A stretch of DNA of 32,538 nucleotides, from assembly GCA_021463195.1 (NCBI GenBank), contig JAJTXZ010000056.1:1-32538 (forward strand). The letters run 5' to 3'. A program made the translations under genes and the position numbers. Every line of letters begins with the position of its first letter. The stretch's first letter is position 1. The DNA comes from Anaerolineae bacterium. GTDB taxonomy: Bacteria; Chloroflexota; Anaerolineae; UBA4142; SHND01. Of this stretch, positions 4,155-32,476 are shown in pieces. Under the pieces are notes generated by a model that had not been told where the DNA came from, made no database searches, and saw nothing but the letters and a program-made list of their open reading frames with translations.

Positions 4155-4354
4155 AGGGGCGTTTCGTATTTTTGTTGCTGCGAATTCCATTCGCCCTCCC
4201 TCCCGCATGAGCTACCACTCTGTCACCTCCGCGACAGACAACGCATTACATCTTTGCTACAATAGCCGTTACGCGGTTGCCCGTACGCGGATTGTATAGT
4301 AACCTTACGCCAGGCGCGGCGCAAGCGCCGCGAACTTTACAATCGAGTCCCGTC
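4155..4354. other. Leader region of the signalling operon
   Basis: No gene is seen here. The region holds the candidate extended -10 at 4255-4263. A TTG codon at 4277 opens the long reading frame early, but the 26 residues it would add look like an untranslated leader. Confidence 0.4.
4255..4263 (+). promoter_or_regulatory. Candidate extended -10 promoter of the signalling operon
   Basis: TGCTACAAT matches the extended -10 pattern TGnTATAAT with one mismatch. No clear -35 box is found at the usual distance. Transcription would start near 4270, leaving a leader of about 85 nt before ATG 4355 but only a few bases before TTG 4277. This favours the ATG. Confidence 0.4.
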
Positions 4355-7300: not shown

Positions 7301-10300
7301 ATCATTGTCGAAGATTACGAAAAAGAATACGCCTTTAGCGATTCGGACGTGCGTTTATTAAGCACGGTTGCGGCATCCATGGGCGTCGCGCTCGAGAACG
7401 CGCGCCTCTTTGATGAAACGCAGCGGCTCTTGAAAATCACCGAAGAACGCGCCGAAGAACTTGCCATCATCAACAGCGTCCAAGCAGGTTTGGCAGCGCA
7501 GTTAAACCTTCAAGCCATCTTTGACCTCGTGGGCGACAAAATTCGCGATACGTTCGATGCACAAGCCGTTATTATCTCCACCTACGACCGCCAGACTAAC
7601 TTGCTACACTATCCCTACATTTACGAGAAAGGTGAGCGTCTAACTGAAGTCGCGCAACCCCTGGATGACAGGGGCTTTGCCCCGTTCGTCATGCGGACGC
7701 GCCAGCCGTTGATGGTCAATCAAGATATGCTCGCACGCGCGGCTGAGGTCGGGTCATTCATTCTCGGCGGCGGTGAAGTGAGCAAGTCGGGAATTTGGGT
7801 CCCGCTCGTCGTTGGCGAGGAAGCGCGCGGCGCAATCTCGATTCAAAATGTGGACCACGAAAACGCGTTTGATGAATCGGATTTCCGCTTGCTGCAAACG
7901 CTCGCCAGCAGTTTGAGCGTGGCATTTGAGAACGCGCGCTTGCTCGACGAAACGACGCGCCGCGCGAATGAAATGTCCGCGCTCACCGACATTGGGCGCG
8001 AAATTTCTGGCTCGCTCGATTTGAATACCGTGTTGGAACGCGTCACGCAAAACGCGCGCAACGTGTTGCGCGCCGCCACGAGCGCGGTGTTCTTGATAGA
8101 GGCGGATGGCAAAACCCTGCGCGCGATTTCCGCGAACGGCGCGACCGCCGACGCAGTGCTTGCCTTTCGCCCGCGTCTCGGACACGGTTTGATTGGGAGC
8201 ATCACGCAAAACGGGATTGCGGAAGCCATCCCCGATGCCACCACTGACCCGCGCGCGATTCATCTGCCTGGCACCAGTCCGACCGCGCAAGGCGAGAAAT
8301 TGATTGTCGCGCCCTTGTTTAGCGCGAACCAGGTGAGCGGCGCGATTGCCGCGTGGCGTGACGCGGACGACGCAATTTTTTCTGCCGAAGATTTGGTGTT
8401 CCTCGACGGCATGGCGCGCCAAGCAGGCATCGCCATTCACAACGCGCGTCTGTTCGACGATTCACAGCGCTTGTTGAATGAAACGAATCAGCGCGCGGCG
8501 GAATCGGAAATCATCAACCGCATTCAGCAGGGACTGGCTTCGCAGCTCGACTTTCAAGGGATTATTGATTTGGTCGGAGCGAAATTCCATGAGATTTTTG
8601 GTCCGCCCACGATGGTGATTAGTCTTTATGAAGCGCGAGCCAATCGCATGGACCATCGTTACATAGTGGAACGGGGAGAGCGTTTTCAAGCAGCGTCGGA
8701 ATCGCCGCCAGACCCGTTACGCGCCGAAATCATTCGCACGCGCCACGCGCTCGTCATCAATGAAAATTTTATTGAACGTTGTCGCGCGTTGGGCATGACT
8801 GATGTGTTGGCGGGCGAAGCGCCCAAGGCATGGTTGGGCGTACCCATCTTGAGCGGGGACCAAGTTGTGGGCATCATCAGTTTGCAAGACCTCGACCGCG
8901 AAAACGCATTCGATGAATCGGCTGTGCGGTTGCTAACGACGATTACATCTTCAATGAGCGTGGCATTGCAGAACGCGCGCCTCTTTGACGAGACGACGCG
9001 CCGCGCGAACGAAATGACTGCGCTCACCGAAATCGGACGCGAAATTTCCGCGACGCTCGACTTGAACACGGTGCTGGAGCAAATCGTCACGCACGCGAAA
9101 AATGTTTTGAACGCGCGCGATGTCTCGATTCGTCTGGTCCAGCCCGATGGTTCGTTGCCCACCGTTGTCGCCGTCGGCAAGTACGCGGACATCAACAAAG
9201 GCGATGCGCTATTTCTGGGCGAAGGTATCACAGGCAACATCGCCAAAACAGGCATTGCCGAAATTGTGAATGACGCGACCAATGACCCGCGCGCCCAAGT
9301 CCTGCCCGGCACCGAAGAGGACGAAGCAACCGAAGCGATGATGTTTGCGCCGCTCATTTTACGCGGCGTCGTAACCGGCATCATGGTCTTGTGGCGCGAC
9401 CGCGAAATCAGCGGACCATTCGTGCAGAGCGATTTGGATTTTATCGTCGGTTTGTCGCGGCAAGCCGCGATCGCGATTCAAAACGCGCGCTTGTTTGACG
9501 AAAGCCATCGGCTTCTCGATGAGACCGAACGCCGCGCGCGCGAATCTGCCGCGACGAGTGAGATTTTGCGCATCATCAGTCAATCGCCCGGCGATGAAAA
9601 ACCGGTGCTGGACGCGATTGCGGATTATGCGGCGCAGTTGTGTCAAGCCGATGACGCGTTTATCGTGCGCGCGAAGGGGGAATGGCTGGTCGTCGCTTCA
9701 GGCACCGACATTGACGAGCTCTCCGTCGCGCAGCGCCGCGCGCCGCTGCATCGCCAAATGGTGGGTGGACGCGCTCACCTCGAACGACGCACCGTCCAAG
9801 TTGCCGATTTGGCAAATGCCTCCGATGACGAATGGAAACTCGCCAAAGAAATGAATTTACGAATCGGCGTTCAAACCGTTTTGGCGACGCCGCTGTTGCG
9901 CGAGGATGAATCACTCGGCGTAATTGTTATCATGCGCAAATCGCCCGAGCCGTTTGATGAAAAACAAATCGCGTTGTTGAAAACATTCGCCGACCAAGCT
10001 GTCATTGCGATTGAAAACGCGCGCCTCTTTTCGGAAAAAGAAAGCGCGCGCCGTGAAGCGGAAGAGGCGAACGCCGCCAAGAGTTCCTTCCTCGCGACAA
10101 TGAGCCACGAAATTCGGACGCCGATGAACGCCATTATCGGCATGAGCGGCTTGATGCTCGACACGCCGCTCAACGACGAACAACACGAGTACGCCGAAAT
10201 TATTCGCGGCAGCAGCGACGCGCTTTTGACCATCATCAATGACATTCTCGACTTTTCCAAGATCGAAGCGGGCAAAATGGAAATCGAAAATCAACCGCTC

Positions 10301-12004
10301 GATTTGCGCGAAACGGTCGAAGGCGCGCTCGACCTCATCGCCACGCGCGCGGCGGAAAAGGGTCTCGACCTCGCATACCAATTCGACGCGGATGTGCCGC
10401 AAACCATCATCGGCGATGCGACGCGTTTGCGCCAAGTGCTGTTGAATTTGTTGAGCAACGCGGTGAAATTTACCGAACAGGGTGAGGTGGTTCTGGAAGT
10501 CAAGAGTGAAAAGTTAAAAGTTGAACGTGCAACTGCGGTGTCCAATCTCCAATCTCCAATCTCCAATCTCCACTTTTCTGTCCGCGACACCGGCATCGGC
10601 ATTACGCCCACGCAACACGCGCGCCTCTTTCAATCCTTTTCGCAAGCCGACGCCTCCACCACGCGCAAGTACGGCGGGACGGGTTTGGGACTAGTCATTT
10701 CGAAACGCTTGGTCGAAATGATGGGCGGAACGATGTGGGCAGAGAGCGCGGGCAAAGGGCATGGCGCGACATTCCATTTCACCATCAAAGCCGAAGCATT
10801 GGCGACGCCGTTGCGCCCGCGCCGCGATTTGGAACGCGCGCAGCCGTTATTGAATGAAAAACGCGCGCTCATCGTGGACGACAACGCGACCAATCGCCGC
10901 ATTCTCGTCACCTATTTGCGCAATTGGGGGATGTTGACGCGCGACACTGCATCGCCACACGAAGCGTTGAGTTGGATTCAACGCGGCGACCCGTTCGACC
11001 TCGCCATTCTCGATATGCACATGCAAGAGATGGATGGTGTGGAACTCGCGCACGCGATTCGCAATCTCGATTCTCGACTCTCAAATCTCGCGCTTGTCTT
11101 GTTCAGTTCCATCGGACACCGTGAACAAGCCGAATTATTCGCCGCGCAAATCAGCAAACCGATAAAACCATCGCAGTTGTACGACACGCTGGTAAATCTG
11201 TTCGCGCAAGAAGCAACCACCGCGCCCGCAGGAGAAACAAAAATGGCGCTCGACTCTGCATTGGCGCAAAAACATCCGCTCCGCATCTTGCTCGCCGAAG
11301 ACAACGCGGTGAATCAAAAACTCGCGCTGCGACTCTTGCAGCAAATGGGCTATCGCGCGGACGTTGCCGCAAACGGCATCGAAGTTCTTGAATCGCTGGA
11401 GCGACAAACGTATGATGCGATTTTGATGGATGTGCAGATGCCCGACATGGACGGACTCGAAGCGTCGCGTCAAATCAACCAACGCTACGCGCGTAATGAA
11501 CGTCCGCGCATTATTGCGATGACGGCGAACGCGATGCAAGGCGATCGCGAGATGTGTCTCGCCGCGGGCATGGACGATTATTTGACGAAACCGATTCGCG
11601 TGGAGGAACTCGTCGCGGCGTTGTTGAAAACGAAAGCGCGGCGGGCGGACGACCGACGACAGACGACGGACGGCGCGCTGGACGAGACGACCTTTCAAAA
11701 TCTCAAAACGACAATGGGCGCGGATTTCATGGGCGAATTGATTGACACCTTTTTGGAAGACTCGCCGCAACTCATCGCAGAGCTGAAACGCGCGTACGGC
11801 GTAAATGATATTGACGCCTTCCGCCGCGCCGCGCACAGCTTGAAATCGAACAGCGCCAATTTCGGCGCGTTGAAATTGGCGGAACAAGCAAAGGAATTGG
11901 AGAGGATGGCGCGCGCGGGAAATTTGCACGGCGCGGAGGAAAAAATTGCGGGCGTAGAGAGCGAGTACGAAAAGGTGAAAGCGGCGTTGGAGCAAAAACG
12001 ATGA
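4355..12004 (+). CDS. Giant hybrid sensor histidine kinase: TPR, 8x GAF, HisKA, HATPase, 2x REC, HPt
   Basis: A cytoplasmic phosphorelay kinase of 2549 residues with no membrane segment. Residues about 25-480 are TPR-like helical repeats, followed by eight GAF domains (about 530-668, 690-850, 865-1020, 1037-1200, 1210-1370, 1385-1545, 1557-1715 and 1733-1890) joined by coiled-coil linkers of the type [11 protein letters not shown]. The HisKA box is SHEIRTPMN with phospho-accepting His1918. The HATPase has the N box [13 protein letters not shown]1 DTGIGI and G2 GGTGLGL. Receiver 1 has Asp2220 (ILDMHM), receiver 2 has Asp2359 ([11 protein letters not shown]), and the HPt domain has His2494 ([11 protein letters not shown]). 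All relay residues are present, so the relay looks complete. GAF4-5 and GAF6-7 share linkers and boundaries and look like a duplicated pair. Several loops contain repeat DNA, listed separately. ATG 4355 is chosen over TTG 4277. The stop overlaps the cyclase start by 4 bases (ATGA), so the two are translationally coupled. Confidence 0.93.
4659..4679 (+). repeat. Heptanucleotide tandem repeat (CTCCAAT)x3 inside the kinase gene
   Basis: Three perfect copies of CTCCAAT are followed by a partial fourth. Because 7 is not a multiple of 3, the array is read in all three phases and encodes SPISNLQS. It lies between two TPR helices, where a loop insertion would be tolerated. Confidence 0.85.
6157..6204 (+). 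repeat. 48-bp palindromic element in frame within GAF1
   Basis: The left arm (ACCTCACCCC...CCTCTCCT) and right arm (AGGAGAGGGG...GGAGAGGT) form an imperfect palindrome. In this frame it encodes [16 protein letters not shown]. Elements of this family (peptide PNPSPxRRG) occur as dispersed palindromic repeats, mostly intergenic, in many bacteria. Here it sits inside the first GAF domain, between a helix ending RSRVAQLV and the strand VSVIVAPLF. It adds about 16 basic, Pro-rich residues without breaking the frame. Confidence 0.88.
10506..10574 (+). repeat. Two heptanucleotide arrays inside the HATPase region
   Basis: From 10506, degenerate 7-base units GTGAAAA, GTTAAAA, GTTGAAC and GTGCAAC encode [10 protein letters not shown]. 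From 10541, about five units of CTCCAAT encode [12 protein letters not shown]. Together they separate the strand VVLEV from the strand FSVRDTGIG, which are normally joined by a short hairpin in histidine kinase ATPase domains. The insertion is in frame, and the N, G1 and G2 boxes remain intact. Confidence 0.85.
11066..11093 (+). repeat. Heptanucleotide array (CTCGATT-like) inside receiver 1
   Basis: Units CTCGATT, CTCGACT, CTCAAAT and CTCGCGC run with 7-base periodicity and encode [10 protein letters not shown]. They lie in the loop after helix 3, just before the strand LVLFSS that carries the conserved Ser/Thr of the receiver. Confidence 0.75.
11648..11675 (+). repeat. Heptanucleotide array (GACGACN) in the REC2-HPt linker
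   Basis: Units GACGACC, GACGACA, GACGACG and GACGGCG encode the polar linker [11 protein letters not shown] between receiver 2 and the HPt domain. Confidence 0.78.
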
Positions 12005-13038
12005 GCCAAATCCTCATCGTTGACGACAATCGCATGAATCGCCTCTTGCTCTCGCGCGGCGTAGAGCAATTGGGGCACAGGGTCACGTTTGCCGAAAACG
12101 GCAGGCAAGCGTTGGAAATGATTCAGCGCGATGCGTATGATTTGATTTTACTCGATGTGGAAATGCCCGAGCTCGATGGCTATCAAGTTTTGGAAAAATT
12201 GCGCGGCGATATTCATCTGCGCGAGATTCCCGTAATCATTACTTCGTCGCTCGACGAAATTGACAGCGTGGTGAAATGCATCGAACTCGGCGCGGAAGAT
12301 TATTTGCACAAGCCGATCAATCCCGTTTTGCTCAAAGCGCGGCTCAATGCGTCGCTCGAAAAAAAGAACCTGCGCGATCAACAGCGTGAATTGATGCGGC
12401 AACGCACCGAGTTGTTGAGCAAATTTGCAACGGAACAAGTCGCGGAAGATTTATTGACGGGCGGCTTTGCGCTCGGCGGCAAGTATGTCGAGGCAACCGC
12501 AATGTTCTGCGACATTCGCTCCTTTACCACCATCGCGGAAGCGCAATCTCCGGCGGAGACCATCGAACTATTGAACAATTACTATACGTTGATGATGGAC
12601 GCGATTGGCAATGAAGGCGGGATTGTGAATCAAATGGTGGGTGATGGATTGATGGCAATTTTTGGCGCGCCCATCGAACGCGCCGATCATCGTCAAGCGG
12701 CGGTGCGCGCCGCCAAGCAGATGGTGGAATTGATCGAACTGTTCAACCAAGAACAGGTCGTCGCAAAGCGGCAACCCATTCGCATTGGCATCGGCATCGC
12801 GTCGGGACAAGTGATCGCGGGCTACACCGGCACAATGCGTCGCGCCACCTATACCTGCGTTGGCGACACCGTGAATCTCGCCGCGCGTTTGGAATCACAA
12901 ACCAAAGTGTTGGGCGAAATAATCTTGCTGGACGAACGAACGCGCGCCGGGTTGGACGGAACGATTGCGGTGATCGAAAAAGGGGAAATTGAAATTAAAG
13001 GCAAAGCGCAACCCGTGCGCGTATTCGCCGTCGCGTGA
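12001..13038 (+). CDS. Response regulator with class III adenylate/guanylate cyclase output
   Basis: A 345-residue REC-cyclase fusion and the likely phosphorelay output of the kinase encoded directly upstream. The receiver (1-118) has Asp8/Asp9, phospho-acceptor Asp52 ([11 protein letters not shown]), the SS pair, and the Lys of HKPINP. A coiled coil at about 118-145 ([15 protein letters not shown]) connects to the cyclase domain (about 163-345). Both metal-binding Asp residues are visible: Asp171 in MFCDIRSF and Asp215 in [10 protein letters not shown]. The transition-state residues Asn292 and Arg296 lie in [10 protein letters not shown], so the enzyme should be active as a homodimer. The purine-selecting pair looks like Gln (NQMVGD) and Thr (YTCVGD) instead of the classical Lys/Asp, so cAMP versus cGMP cannot be decided, though cAMP is more common in the family. 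The ATG overlaps the kinase stop, and translational coupling replaces a good Shine-Dalgarno sequence. Confidence 0.93.
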
Positions 13039-16126: not shown

Positions 16127-16768
16127 TTAATCCGCCAAACCATAGCGCAGCGCGATGACGGCGGCTTGCGTGCGGTCGTTGACGTTCAGTTTGCTAAAGA
16201 GCGAGCTCACGTAATTACGCACGGTGCCTTCGGACAAAAATAATTGCGCGGCGATTTCAGCGTTTGACATGCCGCGCGCCAGCAGTTTTAAAATTTCATG
16301 TTCGCGCGGGTTGAGCGATGCCGTAATCGTTGTCTCGGCCAAGGTGGTGGCGCGCGCGACATGCGAGAATAATTTTCCGGCGATAGCTGGATCCACAAAA
16401 GTTTGTCCCGCGTAGGTGCCTTCGATAGCTTGGACAAGTCCGGCGCGCGGTGTGTCTTTGAGCAAATAGCCCGCCGCGCCCGCGCGGATAGCGTCCAAAA
16501 TCCATTCGTCCGCGTCGTAGGTCGTCAGCGCCAAGACCTGCACTTCGGGCGCTTTTTCGCGAATTATGCGTGTCGCCTGAATGCCTGTCATGCCCGGCAT
16601 GTTTAAATCCATCAACACAAGGTCGGGTTTGTGCTTGAGCGTCAACTCGATTGCTGTCGCGCCGTCGCCCGCGATACCGATGACGCTGATTCCCTGCGCT
16701 GTTCGCAGAATCGCGTGCAAACCTTCGCGCACCACATCTTGGTCGTCACAAATCAAGACTCGAATCAT
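16127..16768 (-). CDS. NarL/FixJ-type response regulator
   Basis: A two-component transcription regulator of 213 residues. The receiver (1-118) has Asp8, Asp9, phosphorylation site Asp54 (LVLMDLNMPGMTG), the TT switch pair and the Lys of GYLLKD. The output is a LuxR-type helix-turn-helix (about 148-208) with LNPREHEILKLLARGMSNAEIAAQL and the recognition helix SEGTVRNYVSSL. Its ATG overlaps the kinase stop by 4 bases, so the kinase is the partner. Probable target: the ATGAC/GTCAT dyad array at 18114-18149. Confidence 0.95.
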   Translation of the reverse strand: MIRVLICDDQDVVREGLHAILRTAQGISVIGIAGDGATAIELTLKHKPDLVLMDLNMPGMTGIQATRIIREKAPEVQVLALTTYDADEWILDAIRAGAAGYLLKDTPRAGLVQAIEGTYAGQTFVDPAIAGKLFSHVARATTLAETTITASLNPREHEILKLLARGMSNAEIAAQLFLSEGTVRNYVSSLFSKLNVNDRTQAAVIALRYGLAD

Positions 16769-18054
16769 ACGCCGTGTCCTTCCAAGCCATTTTCCATTAT
16801 GACGCAGACGCCACGCTGCGGCGCGCTGCGGACCGACAAGCGGCAGCCCACCATGGCAGCGCGCTCGCGCATTCCACGCAAGCCATAATGTCCGCTGATG
16901 ATAGCGCGCGTGTTGACGCGCGCAGGCTCAAAACCAATACCGTCATCTGTAACGCGCAGCGTAAATTGCTGCGCGCGTTGCTCAAATGTTACCGCCACGT
17001 GGCGCGCGCGCGCGTGACGGATCACGTTTTCCAGCGCCTCTTGCGCGACGCGATAAATACATTGTTCGACCTGCGGCTGCAAACCGTCCGCGCTTGACGG
17101 CAGCGTCAGCTCCAAGCGCAAGCCCGCGCGCGCGGCAGCCGATTCCGCCAGCGCGCGCAGCGCGAGAGGCAAACCTAAATCATCGAGCGGACTGGCGCGC
17201 AATTCGTGCAGCGCGCGGCGCGCTTCGGTAAGTCCGTTACGCGCGCTGCGCGTCGCCTGTTCTAAAATCTTGCGCGCCTCATGCGGCTCGTCATCCCATA
17301 GCGCGCTGACCGCTTCCAATTGGACGCTAACCGCCGATAAGGAATGGGCGAGCGTGTCGTGTAGCTCGCGCGCCATTCGATTGCGCTCACGACTGACCGC
17401 GAGTTGTTCCCCGGTCGTCGCGGCGAACGCGAGCTTTTCATTGGCGGACTGTAACTGCGCGCGCTGCGCGCGCTGCCGCAGCATCAACCACGCGATGCCA
17501 AGCGAAACGCCGGTCACGATCGAGAGCCGCGCCACGACTAGACTGATAAAGAATGGATAGAGCGATCCACTCGGATTGATAAATGGCAGCGTTAGCGCGC
17601 TGTCGAGCAATGTCAACGTAATGCCCGTGAACATGACCGCGCCCATGTTGTACTGCCACGCGACGAAAAAAGTCACCATCTGGAGCGTAAACCATGCGCT
17701 GAGCAAAAAACCCTGCGCAATCAGTTCGCGCGCGTCGGGCGCGATAAACCAATTCAAAGTGACGAATTTATCAAAGATAATGGCAAAGCTCGCGAGCGCG
17801 AGGACGAGCGGCAAAAACGCGCGCCCCAAATTGTGAGCGAACCATGGCGTCCAGACCAAAGCAATGATCAGTAGTTGCAGCGGCAAGGTCAAAAGAAAAT
17901 AAACTGGTAGCGGCGCGCTCGCGCCAAGCCAGATGCCAAAACCGCGTCGGGTCAAGGGCTGCAAAATCAATACCGCGACGACGACCACGCGCAAAACTTG
18001 AATAAGGCCTGACTCTAATTGCGCGGGCTGCGCGGCGGATAGTAAAAACTTCAT
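16765..18054 (-). CDS. NarL-type sensor histidine kinase, multi-pass membrane
   Basis: A membrane sensor kinase of 429 residues and the partner of the overlapping response regulator. Residues about 15-195 hold five to six hydrophobic helices with very short loops, so sensing is probably within or at the membrane, as in DesK-like kinases; no separate input domain is seen. A coiled coil (RAQRAQLQSANEKLAF) leads to the HisKA_3 box RMARELHDTLAHSLS with His232. The ATPase domain has the N box IYRVAQEALENVIRHA, G1 TDDGIGF and G2 GHYGLRGMRERA. No clear Shine-Dalgarno sequence precedes ATG 18054. The gene may be read from a short leader or be leaderless. Confidence 0.94.
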   Translation of the reverse strand: MKFLLSAAQPAQLESGLIQVLRVVVVAVLILQPLTRRGFGIWLGASAPLPVYFLLTLPLQLLIIALVWTPWFAHNLGRAFLPLVLALASFAIIFDKFVTLNWFIAPDARELIAQGFLLSAWFTLQMVTFFVAWQYNMGAVMFTGITLTLLDSALTLPFINPSGSLYPFFISLVVARLSIVTGVSLGIAWLMLRQRAQRAQLQSANEKLAFAATTGEQLAVSRERNRMARELHDTLAHSLSAVSVQLEAVSALWDDEPHEARKILEQATRSARNGLTEARRALHELRASPLDDLGLPLALRALAESAAARAGLRLELTLPSSADGLQPQVEQCIYRVAQEALENVIRHARARHVAVTFEQRAQQFTLRVTDDGIGFEPARVNTRAIISGHYGLRGMRERAAMVGCRLSVRSAPQRGVCVIMENGLEGHGV

Positions 18055-18113: not shown

Positions 18114-18149
18114 ATGACGACAGTCATATCTTGATATGACGCGTGTCAT
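18114..18149. promoter_or_regulatory. Four-half-site dyad operator (ATGAC/GTCAT array)
   Basis: Half-sites ATGAC (18114), GTCAT (18123), ATGAC (18136) and GTCAT (18145) alternate in orientation. The central pair extends to GTCATAT-CTTG-ATATGAC, and the outer and inner half-sites are separated by 4-base spacers on each side. The whole array is symmetric about 18131-18132, while the spacer bases are not conserved. It lies directly upstream of the -35 box of the kinase/regulator operon. That is the usual place for a NarL-family activator dimer pair. Confidence 0.6.
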
Positions 18150-18280
18150 ATGGCGGAATGCGTCGCGTCACTGTGTTTGTATCCCAGCTCGCGTTAAAGT
18201 AGCAATAGTTAAAATAGTTTTATGTTTAATCTCTTTGTCAAGCGCAGGCATCGCGCGCGAATTTGAAACTCGCGATGCGT

Positions 18281-18349: not shown

Positions 18350-21300
18350 ATGACCAAATCCACGTTCCGCGTTTTGGGCGTTATTTTATTTTCGAGCGTC
18401 GTCGCCGCTTTGATTTTATTTGGCGCGCAGTGGTGGAACGCCACGCCGGCGCGCCAAACGCAAAACGCGTGGAACAATGCGCGCGCCGCCGGCGGTTATG
18501 CCTTTCGTTCCGATATTGTCGAGTCGGATGTGCCGCGCGCAGAGCTGGGCAATATCGGGCGCAGCAGCGTGGAACATGCGTATCATATCGAAGGCGTTAC
18601 GCAGCTCGATGCCAAGCGGCTTGAATTTTCGCTATGGGATGATGGCGGCAGCGTCGCGCTGCGAGAATCCGCCGCGCAGTTCAGACTCGAAAATGGACGC
18701 GCGTTTGGGCGCCGCGGCGAGCAAGCTTGGCAAGCCATCGGCAATTTCACCGAAGGCATCGCGCCCGAAGGCGACTTTATGGCATTCCTCGCGGGCGCGC
18801 AAAATGTTCAGAACGTTGGGCATGAAACGCGCGACGACGTCACGTTCACGCGCTATACGTTCGATTTGAATGGCGCGGGTTTTGCCGAATATGTGCGCGC
18901 ACAGACGCAAGCGCGTTTACAGCAGCAAGGCGCGCTGCCGTATGGACTTCAGGTTGGACTGACGGAACAATATAAAAATTTGCGCGGCACGGGCGAATTT
19001 TGGGTGGGTCAGGATGGTTTGCCGCTGCGTCTTGTCGCCAACTTGGAATTTCCGCCGCAGAATGATTATATCGTACGCGCGCGCATCACGACCGTATTTA
19101 GCGATTTTCCCAATTATGTCCAGTATCAAAACGGCAAAAATTTCTGGACGCTTGCGGTTGAAAATTTTCCGTATCAACGGACGGAAGAATTTGGCGCGTA
19201 CGCGAGCGCGTTGGGCGCGTTCGCGTATGACGCGGCGCGTCAATGGACGGATGCGGGCGCCAACGCAGCGACGCATATTTTGGCGCGGAATATTTCGGCG
19301 TTGGGCGCGTTAGCGGTCGTGGCGCTGCTCCTCTATTTCTTTTTTCGTTTTCACCACAAGCGTTTTGTGTACAACGCGCTGGTCATTTTTGTCATTGTTT
19401 CGATGGAAGCGTCGCCGCTGATGCAAGCGCAGCAGGCGAGCGCGTTCAGCGCTGAACAAAACGCGCAAGCTGCCGCGCAACAAGCGCAACAAACCGCGCA
19501 GCAAAATTTTCAGGACGCGACGCAAAAAATTCAGCAAGCGAACGAAACTAAACCGCAGGTTGACCCGCTGCGCGCGGCGTACGATGCCGCGCGGACGGAA
19601 AATTCTTTGCGCGCGCCGCTGAATCTGCCAACGGGCGGCGGCGCGCCGGACGATGGCGCGGCAGCTGCGGCGCCAGTCTCGGCGCAAGATTACGCGCGCG
19701 TCGCCGCCGCTATCAATGCGTCGGTGTGCGATGTCAATCAACCCGCGCTCGATTCCGACAGCGATGGTTTGACGAATTGCGAAGAGGTGTTGCTCGGCAC
19801 AAATTCGCTGCAAGGCGATACCGATAGCGACGGTTTGGCGGATGCGCTAGAGGTCGTCGGTTTTGATTTTGGCGGCAAGCATTGGTACTCGGATCCGCTC
19901 AAAGCGAGCGCGCTGAATGACGGCATGCTCGACGGACAGAAATGTCAGTTGACGAACGGCAATCCCAACTGCGCGTTTTCAAGCAATGGCGATGCTACGC
20001 CCGATTTGTTTGATCGCGATATGGACGGCGATGGCGTGCCGAATGCGCTGGATTTGACGCCGCAGCAAAAGAACGCGCAAACATTCGGCGAAACTAATCC
20101 GGTTTCACTCGTCGTTAATAATCTCGCCGCGAGCAAACCGACCTACGTCGAGTTTCAAATTCGCCCGACGAATCCGCAACATTTGTGGTACGCCTACAAT
20201 GTGCTGGATTGGGTTGCGGGCGATCAAGAGGGCCAAATTCAGCGCGATGACGCGTCGGACGCGCCCAAAACATTTTACGCGGTTTGTATGGCGCGCGGCG
20301 GTTCAAATTGTCGGATGAATCCGGACAATAACGGCGACATTAAACTTGTGCCGATGCTCGAAATTCGCGCGCCGCTGTCGAGCGCGAATATTCCCAACAG
20401 CAGCGCGTTGAGCGCGTACGGCATTTTTAGCAAAGTAGATACCTCAAACAAATATATTTATGTGCCGCTGCAACTGGTCAAGGATGACAAGACCGGCGAC
20501 CGAGTCGCGTTTTATGGCAAGATGCTGTATCAAGCTCCAGCGCAAGGCGCGTGGGGCGGCGCGCATCAGGCGCGGCTCGTTTGGGTCGTGCAGATGTTGG
20601 TGGATGTGTGTCAGGACACGGAGGGTTCGGTCTGCAAATCGTACGTCAAAAACGGCGTGGATTATCATAATCAACTTCAGATTACGCAAACGTATTACGA
20701 CGATTTTACATTGACCGGTTTGAACGTGCGCGAAAATCGCGGGACTGATTACGCGCTTGTTTATCAAGACCCTGCCAAAACTGACAATCTCAATCTGGAC
20801 GCCGATTTGACGCGGCTTGTCACCGGGCTGGATTTGGCATTGCTTACGCCGCGCGATTGTGAAAATACAGACGCGGCGGGCGTTTGTCTCGGCGGCGACG
20901 GCAAACCCGATTTGACGGTGAATGGTCGCGGCGTCAATGCGCCGATGCTGCAGGACCGTTTTGATTGGACCAAAAATTCTGGCGTGTCTGATGACCAGCG
21001 TTGGGGCTTGAATAGCTTGCGAGTGACGACCAAACATTACGACCATCGCGATTTGGCAGTGGCGAATATCGGTTCGGTCGAGGCGCAAAATGTTTTGAAC
21101 GCGCAATTTACGCCCGCATGGAGCGCTGCCGCGCCGATTACGCCGACGCTGCTGTACGTGTACGAAGACAATTTCCGCGTGGTCAGCGATTCGCCGCAAG
21201 CTCGCGCCGACGCGGGCGTGCAGTGGACAGGTTCGCAAGTCAATGTAAATATGAATTGGGCGTCGCCGCAATGGGTGGCAGGTTTAAATGTCGCGCCCTA

Positions 21301-24300
21301 TACGCGTCAATCCGGCGCGTGGCGTCCGCTCGATATGGTGACGTACGGCGCGGAATTGGACCGTCGTTTTCAAGGCGTTGCGGACCTCGCCGATACGGCG
21401 GATGTCACCGCCGGCAAAATTGAATTGTTCAAATTGCAATACGCGGCATGGTTCAGCGGCATCTCGCAAGTGATTCAAATCGGCGATACGCCGCTGTTTA
21501 ACCGCGCGCAGTTGAACAGCGATTCGCAGGTCAAGAATCGCATTGTTTTTGGCGCCAAGAGCGCGAAAGCGCTGCTCGTCTTTGTCACGACACAGTACGA
21601 TGTCGCGTTCGGCATTCGCAACGCGATGGGCATCGAAGCGCGCGAGGTGTATCAATATCTCGGTTTGCTCAAGCGCGGCCAAACGCTCAAAGATATTGAA
21701 ATCGAAAATACATTTTCGTCGCTGGCGCGCAAAATGCGCCGTTTGAATATCGAGGTGGACGCCGCGACGGGCAAACCGATTAATGGCGAAACGTTGTCGA
21801 ATGGACAGCGTTTTACTTCGGTTGTGGCGGCGCTGACGATTGTTTCTCTGCTCGCGGGCGGCGGGTTGTACGCGGCGGGCTTGGCGACGGGCAATCAAGG
21901 TCTCATCATCGCAGGCCAAGCTTTGCTCGCGTTCGGTTTATTCATTTCGCTCGCGGTCACGCCGCTCATTGCGGTCAAGAATATATTTCGAGCGCTTTCG
22001 TCGGCGGGCGAACTATCATTCGGCAATGCCGCCAAAACGCTGGGCGCGAATTCCGAACTCATTGGCGTCTCAAAATACGCGCGCGGCGTCGGACTTTTTT
22101 TTGACCTCTCGCTGCCGTGGGGTTTGGCGCTGTACGATATTTTTTCGAATCATCTTAAATTCGGTTCGCCCGAATTCAACACTGTCGTCGCGCAAGCTAT
22201 CGCTGGCACGATCGTCGCGATTCTTTTGTTCGCGCTCGGCGCGTTTGTCATCGGCGCGATTATCACCGCCATCATCGGCTTTATTGACGTGCTGCTTGTG
22301 CTGCTCTGCCAAGGCGGCGTCGGCGGCGCGTGTTGGGGTGTGGTGGGCGAAATCACGGCGGCGATTGCGGATTTTATTTATAAAGGCGGCGCGACGATTG
22401 ATTTCGCGCACAAGGATAGCGCCGGCAATTCCGACCTGGTGCAAATAAAAAATCTCAAACTGCATCTCGCGGACGCGAGCAAAGGAATGCGCGCGGACAA
22501 TTCCATCACGTATAGCGCGGACATTCAAACCAATCTTTATCACAAGTATCGCAGTTTTGAATTTTACAGCAGCGATCATTTTTTCAGCAGCAACGATCTC
22601 CGCGAATCCACCTTCAAGTATCAACTCACCACCGACAAGAACGCGTCGTTGCGTTCTAATCGTAATGAAATGCCCAATGCATGGCAGAATGTGCAGCGCA
22701 AGAGCGGCGGCGGTTGGCAGGCAACCAAAACCGATCATGTGACGAGCAATCCTATCACTTTTGAGGCGGGCTTGAATCGCGCCAGTCCCCTCTATTTGAA
22801 AATGAGCTATGCCGTGATGGGCTATAGCTGTTGGGTCGGTAAATGCGATTACACCACGACGCGCGGCGACAATACGAGCGACCTCGGCAGTATCGTCGTC
22901 TTTGATATTTTTCCGCGCACCCTCGACGCGTTTTATAAAATGGATTGGGCGGGCGGCGTATCAAATCAAGTGTGTCTGCCGTTTTTTGCCGGCTTTCAGA
23001 GTCTTGTGCCGCCGCGCCCTCTGTTCAAGACATCCTGTTTCACCACGCACTCGGGATATATTTTCAAAACCCAACGCGACCATGATGGTGATGGTTTGAT
23101 GGCGCGCGCGTTCGGCGGTCTCGATCCTGACGATACGAAATTCGATACAGACAATGATGGCGTGCCGGACGCGGTAGAGCTAGAAAAAGGCATTGACCCG
23201 ACTAGCGCGGATACCAATGGCGACGGTCTTGCCGACGCGCAAAAATTGATTTATGGACTCGATCCGCTGCGCGCCGATACCGACCGCGACGGCATTGTAG
23301 ACCGAACCGAACTGGCGGGTTTTAATTTTACCTATGCGCCCGGCAAACAAACGCGCGTATATCCCGATCCGCTCGCGCCTGATACGGATGGCGACGGATT
23401 TGACGATTATTCCGAAGCTGTTGGCGGCGCGGACAGCGTCGCTGCCGTCGCGCGTCGCAATCAAACGAAAAAGGCGCAGGGGGCTGCGCGCGCGCAAACG
23501 GACGCGTTTACGCTCGGCTTGAACGCGCGCGTCTTTGACGCCAATCCATTGGAATTGCGCGCCGAGACGCGCCAAGGCAATCTCTTTCTTGGACCCGGCG
23601 ACACGTTTGTCTATACCATGACGCTGCAAAACAAATTGCAGCCCGGCGCATACCAGCGCGCGAATCAAATTTATGCGTCGGGATTGATTACCGCCGCGCT
23701 GCCAAGTCAAATTCAATTTCAGTCTGGCGGCGCGAATTCGTTTACGCAAAGTTTTATCTTGGGCAATAGCGCCATCACGCCGACGCTGAATCTGAAAATC
23801 GCCAGCAACGCGTCCACCGGACGCATCGCCATCAATAATGACGCGTCCGCGACTCTTTACGATGGTGTTCCCGCGACCACACCGCTAGCCCACGTTTTGA
23901 ATCATAGCGCGTACGAGTTGACGATTGACGCCGATCTGCCCACCTCGCAATTCGCGGCGATGCCTTTTGCGCGCGCGGGCGCATCTTTGACGCTTGGCGG
24001 CATTGCCCAAGATGCCACCACTCCGATTTCCCAAGTCGAAATTAGCGTTGACGGCGGACCCTTTGAACTAGCGAGCGGCAATGCCGCTTCGCTCGGCAAT
24101 GCCGCGTATGCGTGGGCATATACCTGGCTTGCGCCCGAAACCGCCGGCGCGCATACCTTTCGCCTGCGCGCGACCGACAGCGTGGGCAATGTCCAAAATC
24201 CGCTGACGACAATGACGGTGCGTGTGGATGCCCAAGCGCCCGCGCTCACAACCGATCTGGACAATAATCCGATTGTCGCCGCATCGTTGGATGAAAACGG

Positions 24301-27300
24301 ACAATGGGTTGTCGCTTTGAACGGCACAGTTACCGACGCGTTCGATGCGAATGCAAGCGGCGTGGCTGCCGTCGAAGTGTCGTTCGCTCCATACAATAAC
24401 GGGTGGCAGCGCGCCAATCTAGACCAAAGCGTATCGCCGCATACATGGTCCATTCTTTACCGCCTCGCCGCGTTCGATTCAAATACCGATGCGGTGATTA
24501 ATCCGAGCGGGCAGGCGCAGGCACAAGCGCGCGCGTTCGATAATGTCGGCAACCTAACGACATCGGGCCCGACGGCTCTACGCATTGACCAGACGCCGCC
24601 CACATTGACCCTGAACGACCCGGCGGATACACCCGGCGGCGAATTTATCACCCGCGCGTCCACTCTCGCCGGCAGCGTGACCGATCCCGCGTTGAATGGC
24701 GTCAATTCTGGCATTGCGAGCGCCGAAATCGCGTTCACGCTTGACAAAGTGACCGACGCGCTGACGCACGCGCTGCTGCTGCAATCGTTCGATACCAAAC
24801 TCGGCGTCAACGCGTGGCGCGACCGCGCCGCGTTGGGCAACAATGCGATGTGCGATGCGGCGAACTGTCCGGCGACCGTCGCAGGGCGTGTGGGGCTGGG
24901 GCTAGAGTTCAGCGGCGCGTCGAATCAAAGCGTCAATGTCGCCGCGTTTCCCATTCCCCTAACCAACTATACCTTTTCAGAATGGTTCAAAACCACTTGC
25001 GCCGATTGCGGCTTGTCTTTGCTTCAGGGCGCGGCGATAGCTGACCGTCAACTTTATTTGCGCGGCGGCGCGGTGTGCGCGGACGTATTTAACGGTTTTC
25101 GCCAACAGATTTGCGCCTCGAGCGCCAATTACGCCGATGGTAACTGGCACAATGTGACGCACGTCCTCGATGCCGATGGACAAAAATTGTATGTGGACGG
25201 CGCGCTGCAATCCTCTAATTCGCTCGGCGCGTCGGCGAGCAGCGCGATCGCGACGGTCATCATTGGACGCGCGCCGCAAGCGGAAACGCCCTTTTTCACC
25301 GGACAGCTCGACGAAGTAAAATTGTTCGCTTTTGCGCTCGACGCGGACGCGGTTCAAGGTTTATACAATACATGGCAGCCGACGACGCTTTCAAATTCCG
25401 GCGCAGGCGTGTTTAATGCTACGTGGAGCATGCCGCTCCCGACTGACCTCGAGGGCAATTATCAAATTGATTTGACCGCCACCGACATGCGCGGCAATCG
25501 CAATGAAGCGCGCGAAACGTGGGGGCATTGGAGCGGCGAAATTGATTTACGCGCCCCCCGTGTCGCCATCCAACTCGCCTACAGCGGTTCAGGTTCGACC
25601 GCGCGTACGACTATCACCGGTTGGGCGGAAGATTTGAATTTGACCGAAGAAGGTTTTGAAAGTCCCTGCGCGCCCGCGACGTTTACTCGCGCCTACAATT
25701 CGCTCACCCGACCCGATACGCCGACGCGATTGAATCGCATTGATTTTTCATGCAGCATCCCCGGATTTATTGACAAGACTACGCGGCTAAAAGCGTGTGA
25801 TACAAATCAACGCTGCGCGGCGAATTATCCCGACGCCTATATGCTCTATGCGGTCAATCCCGGCTGGACCGAGCGCGCGCCCGCATTCACCTATTCCCCC
25901 GTCCAACGTATCGCCACCGCTTCGCGATGGGGCGCCTGGAGCGTCGGCGGTTTGGCGACGGATGACGCGCATGGCAAAGTGTATTGGAATGATTTGGATG
26001 GTCTGCGCCGCTCCAATCTCGATGGCTCGCAGCTGGAAACGCTGCCCATCGGCTCTAGCGTCACCCGCGATCTCGCCCTCGATAGCGCCGCCGGTATTCT
26101 GTTTCGTCTCGAAAGCGACGGCGTGTATCGCTCCAATCTCGACGGTTCACGTTCTGCGCGCGTCATCGGTCTTGACGGCCAATTCGCGCTTGCGGTGGAT
26201 TCGCCGCGCGGCAAAATTTATGTCGGCGGCGGCAATGTCATTCGACGTTACAATTATGACGGCAGCGGCGGCGAAATCTTTGATACCGATGGCGCCGCGA
26301 CGGTATCTGTGCGCGCCCTCGCCGTGAATACCTCTACCGGACGCGTCTTTTGGTCGCGCTATGCCAATACTCCCAATGATCCCACGTGCAAGTTCTATAA
26401 TTTCGTCATGTGGCGGAATTTTGACGGGAGCGGCAGGAATTTTTATTCGGATAATTACGCTGGGCCTTACAACCCCGGCTGCAATGTTGAATATGAAACG
26501 CTCGCATACGACGCGGTGTCCGACAGCATCTTTTTCCCCAGCTATAAAGAATCGCAGAGTAACGGTTTTCTCACCTTTGCCACCACCTTGAAACGCATCC
26601 CCGCGAGCGGCAATGGCTGGTGGAGTTGGGATGTTGGACCTATCTTTTCCGGCACGCGCGGCTTGGGTTTCGCCACCTATCATTCAAAACCTTTTGACGC
26701 GGCGGATTTGGAAGTATCCAAGACCGCGCCTCCCGTCGTCGTGCCTCTTGGGCCCCTGCCTTATCAAATCGTCATCCGCAACTCGGGCGTTAACCCCGCG
26801 TCGAATGTGACTATTACCGATACGCTGCCTATTACTGTCACGTTCAACTCGGCGATGACCAATCTCGGTCAAAATTGTCCTGCGCCGAATGGCGTCCATT
26901 TTTCCTGCGTACTGGACGATCCTATTCAAGGCGGCTCAACCGTCACGTTGACCATTCACACCACCGTCAATGCGGATGGCTTGGGCCAAATTGACAATCG
27001 CGCCGGCGCGCAAATGAGCGCCACCGACCCCAGCCCCAATAACAATCAATCGCAAAACGTCGTCAATGGCGTTACTCCAACGCGGACGCCCACCCTGACG
27101 CCGACGCCGACGCCGACTCTGACGCCGACCAATACGCCGACTCAGACACCCACCTTTACGCCCACCTTTACGCGCGCACCCGCGACTCCCACGCCCGCGA
27201 CCCTGTTCAAGAGTTTGTACTGGACGAATGGACTAGACAAGATTCGCGCGGTCAACGCGGACGGTTCGGGCGCGCGCGATATTCTTGTCCGCTCTAACTT

Positions 27301-30300
27301 GAATGTTTATCCGCCCGCCTACGCCATGCCGCGCGGCATCGCCTTTGACGGCATCAATCAAAAAGTCTATTGGATTGAACGAGACCGCATCCAGCGCGCC
27401 AATCTGGACGGGACGAATATAGAGCTCGTCGCGCATGTCGCCGACGCGTACGCCTTGGTTCTGGACGCGGCGAATCAAAAATTGTATTGGCGCGTGCAAG
27501 GCGTGAATTCCAACGCCTATGCGTTATGGAGCCGAGACCTCGCCGCGAACGAGACGCGCCAAATTATCAAAACATCCAATTTCTGCTGCGGCATCGCGCT
27601 CGACCCCTATCGCGGAAAAATTTATTATGGCGACCAGAGCGGCATAAATCGCATCTGGCGCGCGAACGCGGATGGCACGCAGCCCGAAATCGTCATTGAC
27701 AATATCTATCTCGGTCCCTCTGATGTCGCGATGGATACCGTCAATGAAAAAGTGTATTGGATTGAACAAAAGAACAACACACCGTATCAAGTGCGCCGCG
27801 CGAATTTAGATGGCAGCGCGCCCGAAGTGATTGCCGACGCGGCGCCCAACGCGACGGCGTTGACGGTTGATCCCGCCGGCAACCGCGTCTATTGGACTCA
27901 AGGCGGCGTCATCCAATTCGCGCCGCTCGCGCCCAATTCTGTCGCGTCCACTCTGGCCGATTTAGGCGCTGTCAATGGCAACGCGCATCTCGCGTTAGTC
28001 TACAATCCCGCGCCCACCGCGACGCCCACTTTTACTGCCACGCCCACTGCGACTAATACGCCGACCGCAACCGCGACGCGTTTGCCTGCCACCGCCACGC
28101 CCGTCGGTTATACCAAGAGCGTAGATTGGTCGAACGGCTGGGATAAAATCCAAGCATTGAATGTGGATGGCGGCGGACAACGGCAGTTGATTTATCTCGC
28201 GCCGCTTCAATTCGCGCCGAACCAGTATCATATGCAAAATCCGTCCGGCGTCGCGTTCGATTCCGTTAATCATAAAATCTATTACGCGTTGTGGAACACC
28301 GGGCAAATTCGCCGCATGAATCTTGACGGTTCGGGCGACGAACTCGTGACGTTTTCGCCGTCGCCGTACCCGCGCGAAATCGTCGTGGACGGCGTGAATC
28401 AACGCGTCTATTGGCGCACCGAAAATTATCCTGGCTATACCGAAAAGATTTTTCGCTATAACCTTGACAACGGCGCGCCGTTTGAATTGGTGAGCAATGC
28501 CGGCGCGGACGGCGGTTTGGCGCTCGATGCGGAACGCAGTCACTTGTATTACGGCAGTCCAACGTTTCTCAAACGCATTGACATCAACGGCGCGAACGGC
28601 GTCAATATCTTGGCTGGTTTGAGTGAATTGACGAACGGTTTGGCGCTCGACGCGGCGAATGATCAACTCTATTTCGCCGGTTATTGGTCGGGGCAAATCA
28701 AACGCGTCAACACTGACGGGACCAATATCGAGACGATTACAAACGCTGGTTCGAATATCATGGGCATCACGCTCGATGTCGCCGCCGGCAAAATCTATTG
28801 GCTCAATTATTACAATCCGACGCGCATCGGGCGCGCCGATTTGGCGCCCAACGCGACAGCAGAAACTTTTTTGACGACGACCATTCCCGGTTATATCGCG
28901 GGTATCGCGTTCATGTATGTCCCGCCCACCGCGACACCCACGCCGACGCAGACGCCAACTAATACGCCGACCGCCACTGCGACATTCACGCCGACAAGCA
29001 CATTTACGCCGACGCAGACATCCACACAAACGTCCACCGCGTCGCCCACGCCCACGTCCACTTTTACGCCGACGTTCACGCCGACACAGACGCCCACGCA
29101 GACGCCGACGTTTACGCCGACTAACACGGCGACTAGTACGCCGACCCACACCGCGACCCGCGTCAATGCGACGGCAACACCACCCGCGTCCACGCACACC
29201 AAGCTCCTATTCTTTACGCGGCGCACGAACGGCGACATTTTGCGTGTGCCGCCGGGCAGCGCGGACGCGCGACAAATTGTGGACGCGACCGGTTACGTGA
29301 ATGGCATCACCGCCGACCCCGTAAACGGCTTTTTGTATTGGACCGAAGGCACAAATGGGCGCATTATGCGCTCTGAGCTTGATGGCGCGAATCAGACGCT
29401 CATCCAAGACGGTCTAAACGACCCGCGCGCGATTGTCTATGACGTGAGCGGAAACGATTTGTATTTTACCCGCGCGGGCGCGACCGTCGGCAAATACGAT
29501 TTGGATACCAGCGCGCTGTCCGATTTACCCATCGTCGCCGTGAGCGCGCTCGCCATTGACAGTGAACGCGACAGACTTTATTGGAGCGATCCGCAGGGCA
29601 TCCAGTGGGCGCATCTGGCAACGCCGTCACAGCAAAATATTCTTGTCAATCTCGCGAACGAAACCGTCAACAGTATTTATCTCGACGCGCCGAACGACCA
29701 AATTTATTGGAGCGAAGCCGCCGCGCGGCGCATCCGTCGCGCTGATATGACGGGGATTGACCAAAATATCGTCACCATCGTCAACACGCAAGCGACGCCC
29801 TCTCCCGACGATGGGACTCCGTATGGCATCGCCGTTGACGTTCTCGGCGGCAAACTGTATTGGCTCCAAACGTTCCGTTTGTGGCAAGCTGACCTTGCGC
29901 CGAATTCTACGCCGAACGGCGTTTTCGGCACGGGCGGTTTTCCGCTGTACGGCGGTTCGCTCGTCATGCTCGAATACGCGCTCAATACGCCCACGCCGAC
30001 GGCGACTAACACCGCGACGCCGACCCTTACCTTTACGCCGACCTTTACGCCGACACGCACGCAAACGCCTACCGCGACGCCGACGACCATCGTTGGCCCG
30101 CTCCTAGTCAATACGTTGGACGATGTGGATGACAATGTATGCGATGGCGCGCATTGCTCGCTGCGCGAAGCGATTAACGCGGCGAACAACGCGGCGAATA
30201 TGCAGACGATTCAATTCGACGCGGGTTTGAATGGCACGCTGTATTTGCAGAGCGCGCTGCCCGACATCACCGACGATCTCAATCTCGTCGGGTTGGGCGC

Positions 30301-32476
30301 GAACAATCTCGCCATCAGCGGCGATTCGGACAACGACGGCGCGCCGAATGTCAACGCGTTCAGCATGTCAAACGGCACAGTCTATCTGTCCGCTTTGAGC
30401 ATCGTGTACAGCACGGCAGGCATCGTCAACAATGGCGCGACGTTGAACGCCAATAATCTAAACATTCATCACAATCGCGGCGATGGCTTCGCAGGCGGCA
30501 TTCAACAGCAAAGCGGCGCGCTCACGCTCGCCGATTCCCAAGTCCACGATAACGTCGGCGCTTATGGCGGCGACTATGGCGCGAACGGCGGCGGCATTGG
30601 CATTTATGACGGCGCGGCGAATTTAACCAATGTCCAAATCTACAACAACACTATTCCATCAAACGGCTATTGGGCGCGCGGCGCGGGTATTTATACCGCC
30701 GGGGCGCTTATGCTCGCCGACAGCGCGATTTATAACAACAGCGCGCCCAGCGGCGATGGCGGTGGCATTTTCCAATATCACACCGCGTCGCTCGTCATTG
30801 AGCGCAGCGCGCTCCACGACAATACTGTCGGCGGCAATGGCGGCGGCATTTTTCATCGTGAATACGCAGGCAGGTCCTTTGTCGTCAATGCCGGCGTCAT
30901 CTATAACAATCACGCGCAAAACGGCGGCGGCATCTATGGCGAGTCGTACGAAGCTGGCGTCGCGTCGGATTTAATCAATACGACTATTTCAGGTAACGAT
31001 GCGACGGAAAGTGGCGGCGGCATCTATTTGAGCGCGGGCAATCTTTCGCTCAACAATGTCACTCTCGCCAATAACGCCGCCGACGCGGACAATGACGACA
31101 ATGGCACAGGCGGTGGCATCGCCGGCGCATTCGCTCTCACCGCGCGTAATTCGCTCATCGCGACCAATTTGGACAATCACAGCGTCGCCGCGCCCGATTG
31201 CGAATTGAGCGGCGCGACGGTCAATTCCCAGGGATACAATCTCATTGGCGTTTCGAGCAACTGCGCGTGGAGCGCGGGAACGGGTGATGTTCTCGACCCT
31301 ATAGGGTTCACGCTCGGCGCGCTCCAAGACAATGGCGGCAATACTTGGACGCATGCGCTTGTCCAACTTACCACTGCGGTGGATGGAGGCAATCCGGGCG
31401 GCTGCGCTGACAATAACGCCAATCTGTTGAGCGCTGACCAGCGCGGCGCGGCGCGTCCGCAAGGTCCCGCGTGCGATATTGGCGCGTATGAAGCGCCATA
31501 TCTTCCGACCGCGACGCCAACGCAGACGCCGACACAGACGCCGACTGAAACGTTGACGCCGACGAATATTCCGCCGGACACGATTACGCCAACGCCATCG
31601 CAGACGCCGACGTTTACGCCGACCAGTACGCCGACCGAAACATTGACGCCGACGCCGACAAATACTTGGACGCCAAGCGTTACGCCAACCGCGAGTGTTA
31701 CGCCGACCTCATCGTCCACGCCGACGGAAACATTGCCACCGACGGAGACATTGACGCCGACCGAAACCTTTACGCCGACTGAAACCTTTACGCCGACGCA
31801 GACGCCGACTGAAACGCCGACGGAGACATTGACGCCGACCGTCACTGCTACGCCGCCAAATACGCCGACGTTCCTGCCATCGCCGACCACCATTCCGAGT
31901 TGGACGCCAACATTCACGCCAACTATGACCGCGACGGCAACTCACACGCCAACCGACGCGCTGACCGCGACCTTTGTTCCGACTGATTTACCGCTTTCGA
32001 CGCCGGCGGATACGGCTACGCCAACCGCGACCTATACGCCTACATACACACTCACGCCATCCGCAACCGCGACGCCGATTCAGCCAACCGATGTGCCGGG
32101 ACAGCCACCGGACGCGCCCGTGCCGCAACTCGACGCCGCGATTTTAACGCCAAATAATCACCAAGTCTTTACCACGCTCGACCCGATTACAATCTCGGGC
32201 GGCGCATTTAGTTCCAGCGCGCTCAAATCATTCGAGCTCGAGGTAAACAATGTGACGCTGTACGGCGCGACGTTCCCCGCTGTGGATAATACACGCGATT
32301 ATCCGTGGGCGACGACGTGGACGCCGTCCGCCAGCGGCACATACGTATTCAAGGCGTTGGTCGAAAATTGGAACGGCGACGCATCGGACGATACGCAAAC
32401 GGTCACGATTCAGGTTCTGCCCGCCGACCCGACGATTGACCTGAGAGCGCATTTGAATATTAGTGAGCAGTGGTAA
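18350..32476 (+). CDS. Giant multidomain surface protein (4708 aa) with propellers and Thr/Pro stalks
   Basis: Probably a membrane-tethered adhesin or scaffold; the exact role is unknown. Residues 6-28 are a signal anchor. About 35-300 resemble a LolA/LppX-type lipid-carrier fold. Two helices (about 314-337 and 339-358) and an Ala/Gln coiled coil (361-400) follow. Asp-rich TSP3-like Ca repeats lie near 464-510 and 1578-1688 ([27 protein letters not shown]). Between them is an unrecognised region plus a membrane block at about 1156-1360. Then come Ig-like domains (1850-2134), a LamG domain (2138-2341), propeller 1 (2524-2781), a DUF11 domain (2784-2907), three further YWTD-like propellers on TPT stalks (to 3879), a CSLREA plus beta-helix module ending DIGAYE (3917-4384), a 200-residue TPT stalk and a C-terminal Ig-like domain. 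The number of predicted helices is even between segments, so the large domains would all lie outside. ATG 18350 is chosen from the signal anchor and promoter position. No sortase or PEP-CTERM motif is seen at the C-terminus. Confidence 0.88.
21815..22390 (+). other. Internal membrane block of the giant protein
   Basis: Hydrophobic stretches of helix length occur here: [20 protein letters not shown], then [19 protein letters not shown], a semi-hydrophobic [17 protein letters not shown], and the paired [20 protein letters not shown] and [12 protein letters not shown]. They sit about 1150 residues into the protein, far from either end, between two large domains that look exported. Confidence 0.6.
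25918..26690 (+). repeat. Beta-propeller 1 (YWTD-like blades) in the giant protein
   Basis: The repeated blade pattern combines L(A/D)xD with GK(V/I)Y(W/V) and (R)RSNLDGS. Examples are [40 protein letters not shown] and [20 protein letters not shown]. These match the six-bladed LDL-receptor-like/DUF5050 type. This propeller lies before the DUF11 domain and is not preceded by a TPT stalk. Confidence 0.75.
27073..27204 (+). repeat. Thr/Pro stalk 1
   Basis: About 44 residues of TPT-type repeats ([14 protein letters not shown]...). The DNA is a degenerate ACGCCGAC(C/T/G) minisatellite with a 6-9 base period. It joins the DUF11 domain to propeller 2. Confidence 0.9.
27206..28011 (+). repeat. Beta-propeller 2 in the giant protein
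   Basis: Starts [21 protein letters not shown] and continues with blades such as [40 protein letters not shown] and [14 protein letters not shown]. It is closely related to propeller 3, which begins with the same W(T/S)NGxDKI(R/Q)A opening. Confidence 0.8.
28012..28105 (+). repeat. Thr/Pro stalk 2
   Basis: About 31 residues ([20 protein letters not shown]...) between propellers 2 and 3, encoded by a degenerate GCGACGCCC/ACGCCGACC minisatellite. Confidence 0.85.
28106..28920 (+). repeat. Beta-propeller 3 in the giant protein
   Basis: Opens [20 protein letters not shown]. Its blades include [57 protein letters not shown] and [20 protein letters not shown]. The end, [14 protein letters not shown], matches the corresponding tail of propeller 4 ([11 protein letters not shown]). 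Confidence 0.8.
28921..29190 (+). repeat. Thr/Pro stalk 3
   Basis: About 90 residues of TPT/TST repeats, including (F/S)TPT(Q/F)T units, between propellers 3 and 4. Long antisense open frames here are a by-product of the repeat. Confidence 0.9.
29191..29985 (+). repeat. Beta-propeller 4 in the giant protein
   Basis: Opens [17 protein letters not shown]. Its blades include [38 protein letters not shown] and [20 protein letters not shown]. It is more diverged from propellers 2 and 3 than they are from each other. Confidence 0.8.
29986..30099 (+). repeat. Thr/Pro stalk 4
   Basis: About 37 residues ([20 protein letters not shown]...) between propeller 4 and the CSLREA/beta-helix module. Confidence 0.85.
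30100..31497 (+). other. CSLREA and right-handed beta-helix module of the giant protein
   Basis: VNTLDD...[16 protein letters not shown] is the CSLREA signature that precedes parallel beta-helices in surface proteins. Repeated coils such as (N/D)GGGI(Y/F)xxxG and (I/V)xNNxA follow, and the module ends with [10 protein letters not shown]. The type is common in exported adhesins and polysaccharide-related proteins. No lyase catalytic residues were identified. Confidence 0.85.
31501..32100 (+). repeat. Thr/Pro stalk 5 (longest)
   Basis: About 200 residues of TPT repeats with a recurring (P)[15 protein letters not shown] unit. Near 31755-31800 an 18-base unit recurs (ACCTTTACGCCGACTGAA and close variants). 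The stalk projects the C-terminal Ig-like domain, or spans a wall layer. Confidence 0.9.

Follow-up and report, generated by a model that had tools for sequence, protein, structure and literature searches.

The stretch of DNA analyzed here (the window, 32,538 nucleotides) is a contig of a 4.72-Mb Anaerolineae genome in 143 contigs, and contains a gene for a giant surface protein (18350..32476, plus strand) that was delimited from its open reading frame and from alignment with the protein of a congener. The frame runs without internal stops from a TTG at 18263 to a stop at 32476 (4737 codons), and the ATG at 18350 is its likely start because the start of the congener protein lines up there; residue numbers given below are counted from the TTG at 18263. 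Since the congener protein runs ~1,575 residues past the end of the window protein and the stop of the giant gene lies 62 bases from the contig end, the window copy is probably incomplete at its 3′ end and probably lacks the C-terminus of the protein. Divergently oriented on the minus strand are genes for a HisKA_3 membrane histidine kinase (16768..18054) and a NarL/LuxR-type response regulator (16130..16768). Elsewhere in the window, a hybrid histidine kinase of 2575 aa is encoded at 4277-12004, with receiver and Hpt domains and as many as eight matches to GAF, and the response regulator that comes after it (12001-13038) has a guanylate/adenylate cyclase domain. An Rfam search of the window gave no match.

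The first ~1,700 residues of the giant protein, all of whose features lie on the plus strand, form a base that has almost no Pfam coverage. This base begins with a transmembrane helix or signal anchor (TM1, residues 33-58, 18359..18436), identified by hydropathy and by the net positive charge that precedes it across the family, and continues with a domain that has the fold of the LprG/LppX lipid carriers (residues 58-286, 18434..19120) and, on the basis of hydropathy and charge counts, a TM2-TM3 hairpin (residues 338-387, 19274..19423) whose loop carries a conserved positive charge. A first TSP3-like array of calcium repeats (residues 497-604, 19751..20074) precedes a conserved β-rich ectodomain (residues 605-1090, 20075..21532) and a membrane block of five hydrophobic helices (residues 1180-1352, 21800..22318). 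A β domain recognized from the structural model and the family alignment follows the membrane block (22385..22942), and a second TSP3-like array (residues 1604-1720, 23072..23422) closes the conserved base. TSP3-type repeats were also matched in an NCBIfam search of the window protein, and both arrays are predicted to bind calcium.

An AlphaFold run on residues 56-640, using a 17-sequence alignment, gave a moderate model (mean pLDDT 70.8) in which the LprG/LppX-like domain was modelled better than this mean, with many blocks at pLDDT 80-92. The best Foldseek matches of this domain were the mycobacterial proteins LprG, LppX and LprF (E values of 1e-7 to 3e-6), with RseB also among its matches, and VIA-align gave Z scores of 12.8 for LprG, 12.7 for LprF and 12.5 for LppX. 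The model supports a LolA-superfamily fold for what the preliminary description had called a lipid-carrier-like domain. The fold is common to residues 58-286 and these lipoproteins over 160-180 aligned residues, but identity is ~10% and, unlike LprG, LppX and LprF, the domain of the giant protein is tethered by transmembrane helices within a much longer chain. There is no cysteine, and so no lipobox, in the TM1 region of the window protein, and PF07161 is not listed for this protein and matches only one of 17 members (E = 0.0032), so the domain has the fold of the LppX_LprAFG family without being filed in it. For the ectodomain, pLDDT values over residues 600-1090 were mostly 75-93, with a weaker stretch near the start, and a PDB fold search with a 1001-residue model found no match at E ≤ 0.001 (Foldseek) or Z ≥ 8 (VIA-align). 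Because so long a query could hide a single-domain match, a new fold is not claimed for this region.

Charge counts across 52 members of the family provide a view of how the base is placed in the membrane. The sequence preceding TM1 and the loop between TM2 and TM3 are positive in net charge and the LprG-like domain is negative, a pattern which supports an inside location for the N-terminus and for that loop and an outside location for the domain. As the five helices of the membrane block come after three N-terminal helices, their odd number would put the remainder of the protein, here called the arm, on the cytoplasmic side if every helix crosses the membrane, and outside if one does not. The charge pattern around the block in these 52 members does not decide the side on which the arm lies; an extracellular position is predicted for it.

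The arm starts with an Ig-like or OmpL47-like region with weak to moderate matches (23450..24862) and a LamG domain (Laminin_G_3, residues 2220-2365, 24920..25357; 59.4 bits in Pfam against a cutoff of 27.6). These are followed by a YWTD propeller (P1, residues 2560-2812, 25940..26698), a Pfam DUF11 domain (residues 2815-2932, 26705..27058) and three further propellers (P2, 27209..28000; P3, 28109..28906; P4, 29195..29971). The latter are framed by Thr/Pro linkers 1 to 4 (residues 2931-2983, 27053..27211; residues 3245-3281, 27995..28105; residues 3547-3641, 28901..29185; and residues 3904-3949, 29972..30109). Beyond them lie a CSLREA β-helix and choice-of-anchor Q region (residues 3945-4410, 30095..31492), a long Thr/Pro stalk (residues 4409-4610, 31487..32092) and an Ig-like domain that is 54% identical to that of the congener (32129..32416), after which the frame stops. 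The β-helix region is defined by the NCBIfam models CSLREA_Nterm (TIGR04214, residues 3949-3975, 33 bits) and choice_anch_Q (NF041518, residues 4350-4411, 64.7 bits), each with a cutoff of 25.

All four propellers match solved YWTD propellers of LRP2, LRP4 and LRP6 by sequence (P1, E = 7e-17; P2, 1.4e-68; P3, 1.9e-43; P4, 1.4e-43), and the Pfam families DUF5050 and Ldl_recept_b cover them (PF00058 scoring 54.4 bits against a cutoff of 21), with Pfam matches listed for P2 and P4. The translation contains six readable YWTD-type motifs in each of P2, P3 and P4 and about five in P1. This likeness to the LDL-receptor class B propellers is at the level of the propellers and their repeated motifs; unlike the LRPs, the giant protein is bacterial, its P2-P4 are split by Thr/Pro linkers and lack EGF and LA modules, and its propellers sit on an unrelated membrane base. 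The preliminary description had read these elements as one frame joining all of the domains, with four YWTD-like propellers in series on TPT stalks at the tip of the protein. The single frame and the four propellers were confirmed, and its domain list is correct in substance; the stalks hold for P2-P4, whereas P1 is joined directly to DUF11, and the tip position is lost because the propellers of the full-length ortholog lie in mid-protein.

The same description had named no known architecture with this order of modules. This order recurs end to end in a congener protein of 6309 aa, which is 61% identical to the window protein over 3,553 residues and 58% identical over the rest, to window residue 4718, and in a 6079-aa protein from another family. 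Both proteins contain the base, LamG, P1, DUF11, three YWTD propellers with Thr/Pro linkers, the CSLREA β-helix and Thr/Pro sequence. A shortened propeller arm is present in two further genomes, and contig ends truncate two other copies. A FastTree tree of 52 bases groups the propeller-bearing members, together with members carrying other arms, in one clade of 18 (support 0.84). The preliminary description would have taken frequent occurrence of the architecture with an assigned function as a refutation; recurrence was indeed observed, but no function assigned to the architecture was found, and the protein stands as a genuine giant that is anchored in the membrane and bears YWTD propellers in tandem.

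The broader result concerns the base, which is also joined to other arms. When 60 relatives were searched at the protein level, co-linear giants were recovered; a scan of genome contigs with the single window protein recovered no relative. Among 298 sampled genomes of the class, 136 match a profile of the base at E 0.001, many of them through TSP3 repeats alone, and about 61 match at 250 bits or more. Open frames with the base reach 9,247 aa, many shorter ones being cut by contig ends, and the family ranges in size from about 3,500 to 9,200 aa. In a sample of the phylum, the base was also found in two families outside the class (frames of ~3,600-4,400 aa), and the second class that contains it includes genomes taken as those of Chloroflexus aurantiacus J-10-fl and Herpetosiphon aurantiacus 114-95T; relatives in closed genomes of this second class are 3,857-4,379 aa long. 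Relatives share the plan of the base, with its transmembrane helices and two TSP3 arrays, and differ in their arms, which carry many LamG domains, Ig domains, SdrD-B or propellers. One 4.9-kb contig filed under Candidatus Zipacnadia (L061) also has the base, and may have been misbinned from Chloroflexota or reflect a transfer. No paper describing this base or family was found in the literature.

Many of these relatives have a common C-terminal ending. Among the 38 relatives with a stop, 21 have a [YFWH]-[LV]-P tail within their last 24 residues (L045, L119, L135, L146 and L149 among them), after which few residues follow, often with a final Arg, and the same tail is found in 0.11% of random 24-residue stretches from those proteins. 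A simplified form of the pattern gave 53 matches in 10 genomes versus 5 for a scrambled pattern, an excess of about tenfold. This tail is a possible Chloroflexota C-terminal sorting signal. Two of the 38 finish in a hydrophobic stretch plus a charged tail, and LPXTG is not present at the end of the window frame, an end that is probably truncated.

Among the neighbors of the giant genes, only the two-component system recurs, beside a minority of family members. The same divergent arrangement adjoins the congener giant and the Herpetosiphon giants, and in the two Herpetosiphon genomes checked the kinases adjoining the giants are the best genome-wide matches to the window kinase (E values of about 1e-60, with the next match at about 1e-29, or ~30 orders of magnitude away), in an alignment that spans residues 45-417 and thus extends beyond the ATPase part. 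The intergenic region shared by the window kinase and the giant gene contains two palindromic boxes, TGACGACAGTCA (18115..18126) and TGACGCGTGTCA (18137..18148). A TGAC-N4-GTCA palindrome lies upstream of the kinase at each of the eight distinct two-component loci examined (positions elsewhere: L055, 9540; L149, 15436; L150, 2566; L191, 5243; L196, 5469; L197, 5636; L198, 5067). The longer form ATGAC-N4-GTCAT occurs four times in the genome of the window, two of these in the shared intergenic region, and has a single occurrence in the complete H. aurantiacus genome, within the region between the giant gene and the two-component system. Linkage of the giant gene to a divergently oriented two-component system that has a palindromic box holds in two classes, and this system may control transcription of the giant gene. 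The TGAC-N4-GTCA box is also present where the two-component system has no giant gene beside it, so it may mainly mark autoregulation.

We consider it probable that the window encodes a genuine, probably 3′-truncated member of an undescribed Chloroflexota family of giant multi-pass surface proteins, with the base as their anchor in the cytoplasmic membrane and a variable arm for binding cells or matrix. In such a protein, the arm of Ig, LamG, propeller, β-helix and Thr/Pro modules would span the envelope and bind neighboring cells, matrix or substrate, the calcium repeats would make its membrane-proximal part rigid, an envelope lipid may be bound by the lipid-carrier fold, and the two-component system may set expression of the gene. 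Giant adhesins of other bacteria include LPXTG, serine-rich-repeat and RTX/Bap types, and the window protein is like them in being very large and modular, with Ig and LamG domains, a low-complexity stalk and calcium repeats. Unlike them, it has an N-terminal multi-pass base and no LPXTG was seen, many of its relatives ending in the [YFWH]LP tail instead. Giant genes are reported to be common in Anaerolineae and Chloroflexia and often to encode surface proteins, and Anaerolineae grow in aggregates and biofilms (PMC10608941), which makes adhesion or cohesion the default prediction for the arm, although glycans, proteins or enzyme partners are also possible ligands of YWTD, LamG and β-helix modules that have no part in adhesion. 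A single conserved base in proteins of such different sizes, also in cultured type strains, is a starting point for learning how the surface of filamentous Chloroflexota is built and how these bacteria cohere in mats, sludge flocs and biofilms, and its regulation can be tested through the linked kinase and box.

Other roles for the base can be considered. It might act as a sensor or lipid-handling device like RseB or LprG that, at the membrane, binds a lipid or envelope ligand and then signals or passes it on, with the arm as a ligand receptor whose state is read by the adjoining kinase. The fold matches to LprG, LppX, LolA and RseB, conserved residues within the LprG-like domain and the orthologous two-component systems beside giants of two classes are all consistent with this proposal. 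We nevertheless regard it as unlikely, as the domain has no lipobox, most family members have no two-component system beside them, a common fold shows no function, and no partner export pump was seen in the window. More tentatively than the adhesin reading, the lipid-carrier-fold domain, a putatively new-fold ectodomain and the five-helix membrane block might together constitute an undescribed Chloroflexota membrane machine that serves export, anchoring or sensing through interchangeable arms under dedicated two-component control, a proposal to which we assign a low probability.

It is very improbable that the giant is a polymorphic-toxin-like or pore-forming delivery protein with a long arm and, in its membrane block, a colicin-like pore domain. 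The pyocin S5 pore domain was matched by the profile of the block too weakly to sustain this proposal (E = 0.022), and a PT-TG match is below threshold (E = 0.033). Against these stand Pfam scans of five arms and the window without a toxin domain, Foldseek and VIA-align listings for the block without a colicin, the Pfam Colicin family listed for none of 19 members, and the many arms that end in the recurrent LP tail rather than in a variable toxin.

An assembly or annotation artefact that fused two genes in one frame, which the preliminary description had named as a possible refutation and which a metagenome assembly and a frame stopping so near the contig end might suggest, is hardly credible, since the congener is colinear over ~4,700 residues, another family has the same order and relatives exist in closed genomes, which confines suspicion to the very 3′ end. 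A full-length copy is present in only one of five congeners sampled; in another (L054, 6487-6660) just 58 residues of the LprG-like domain survive, at 57% identity, which suggests that the giant gene was lost there.
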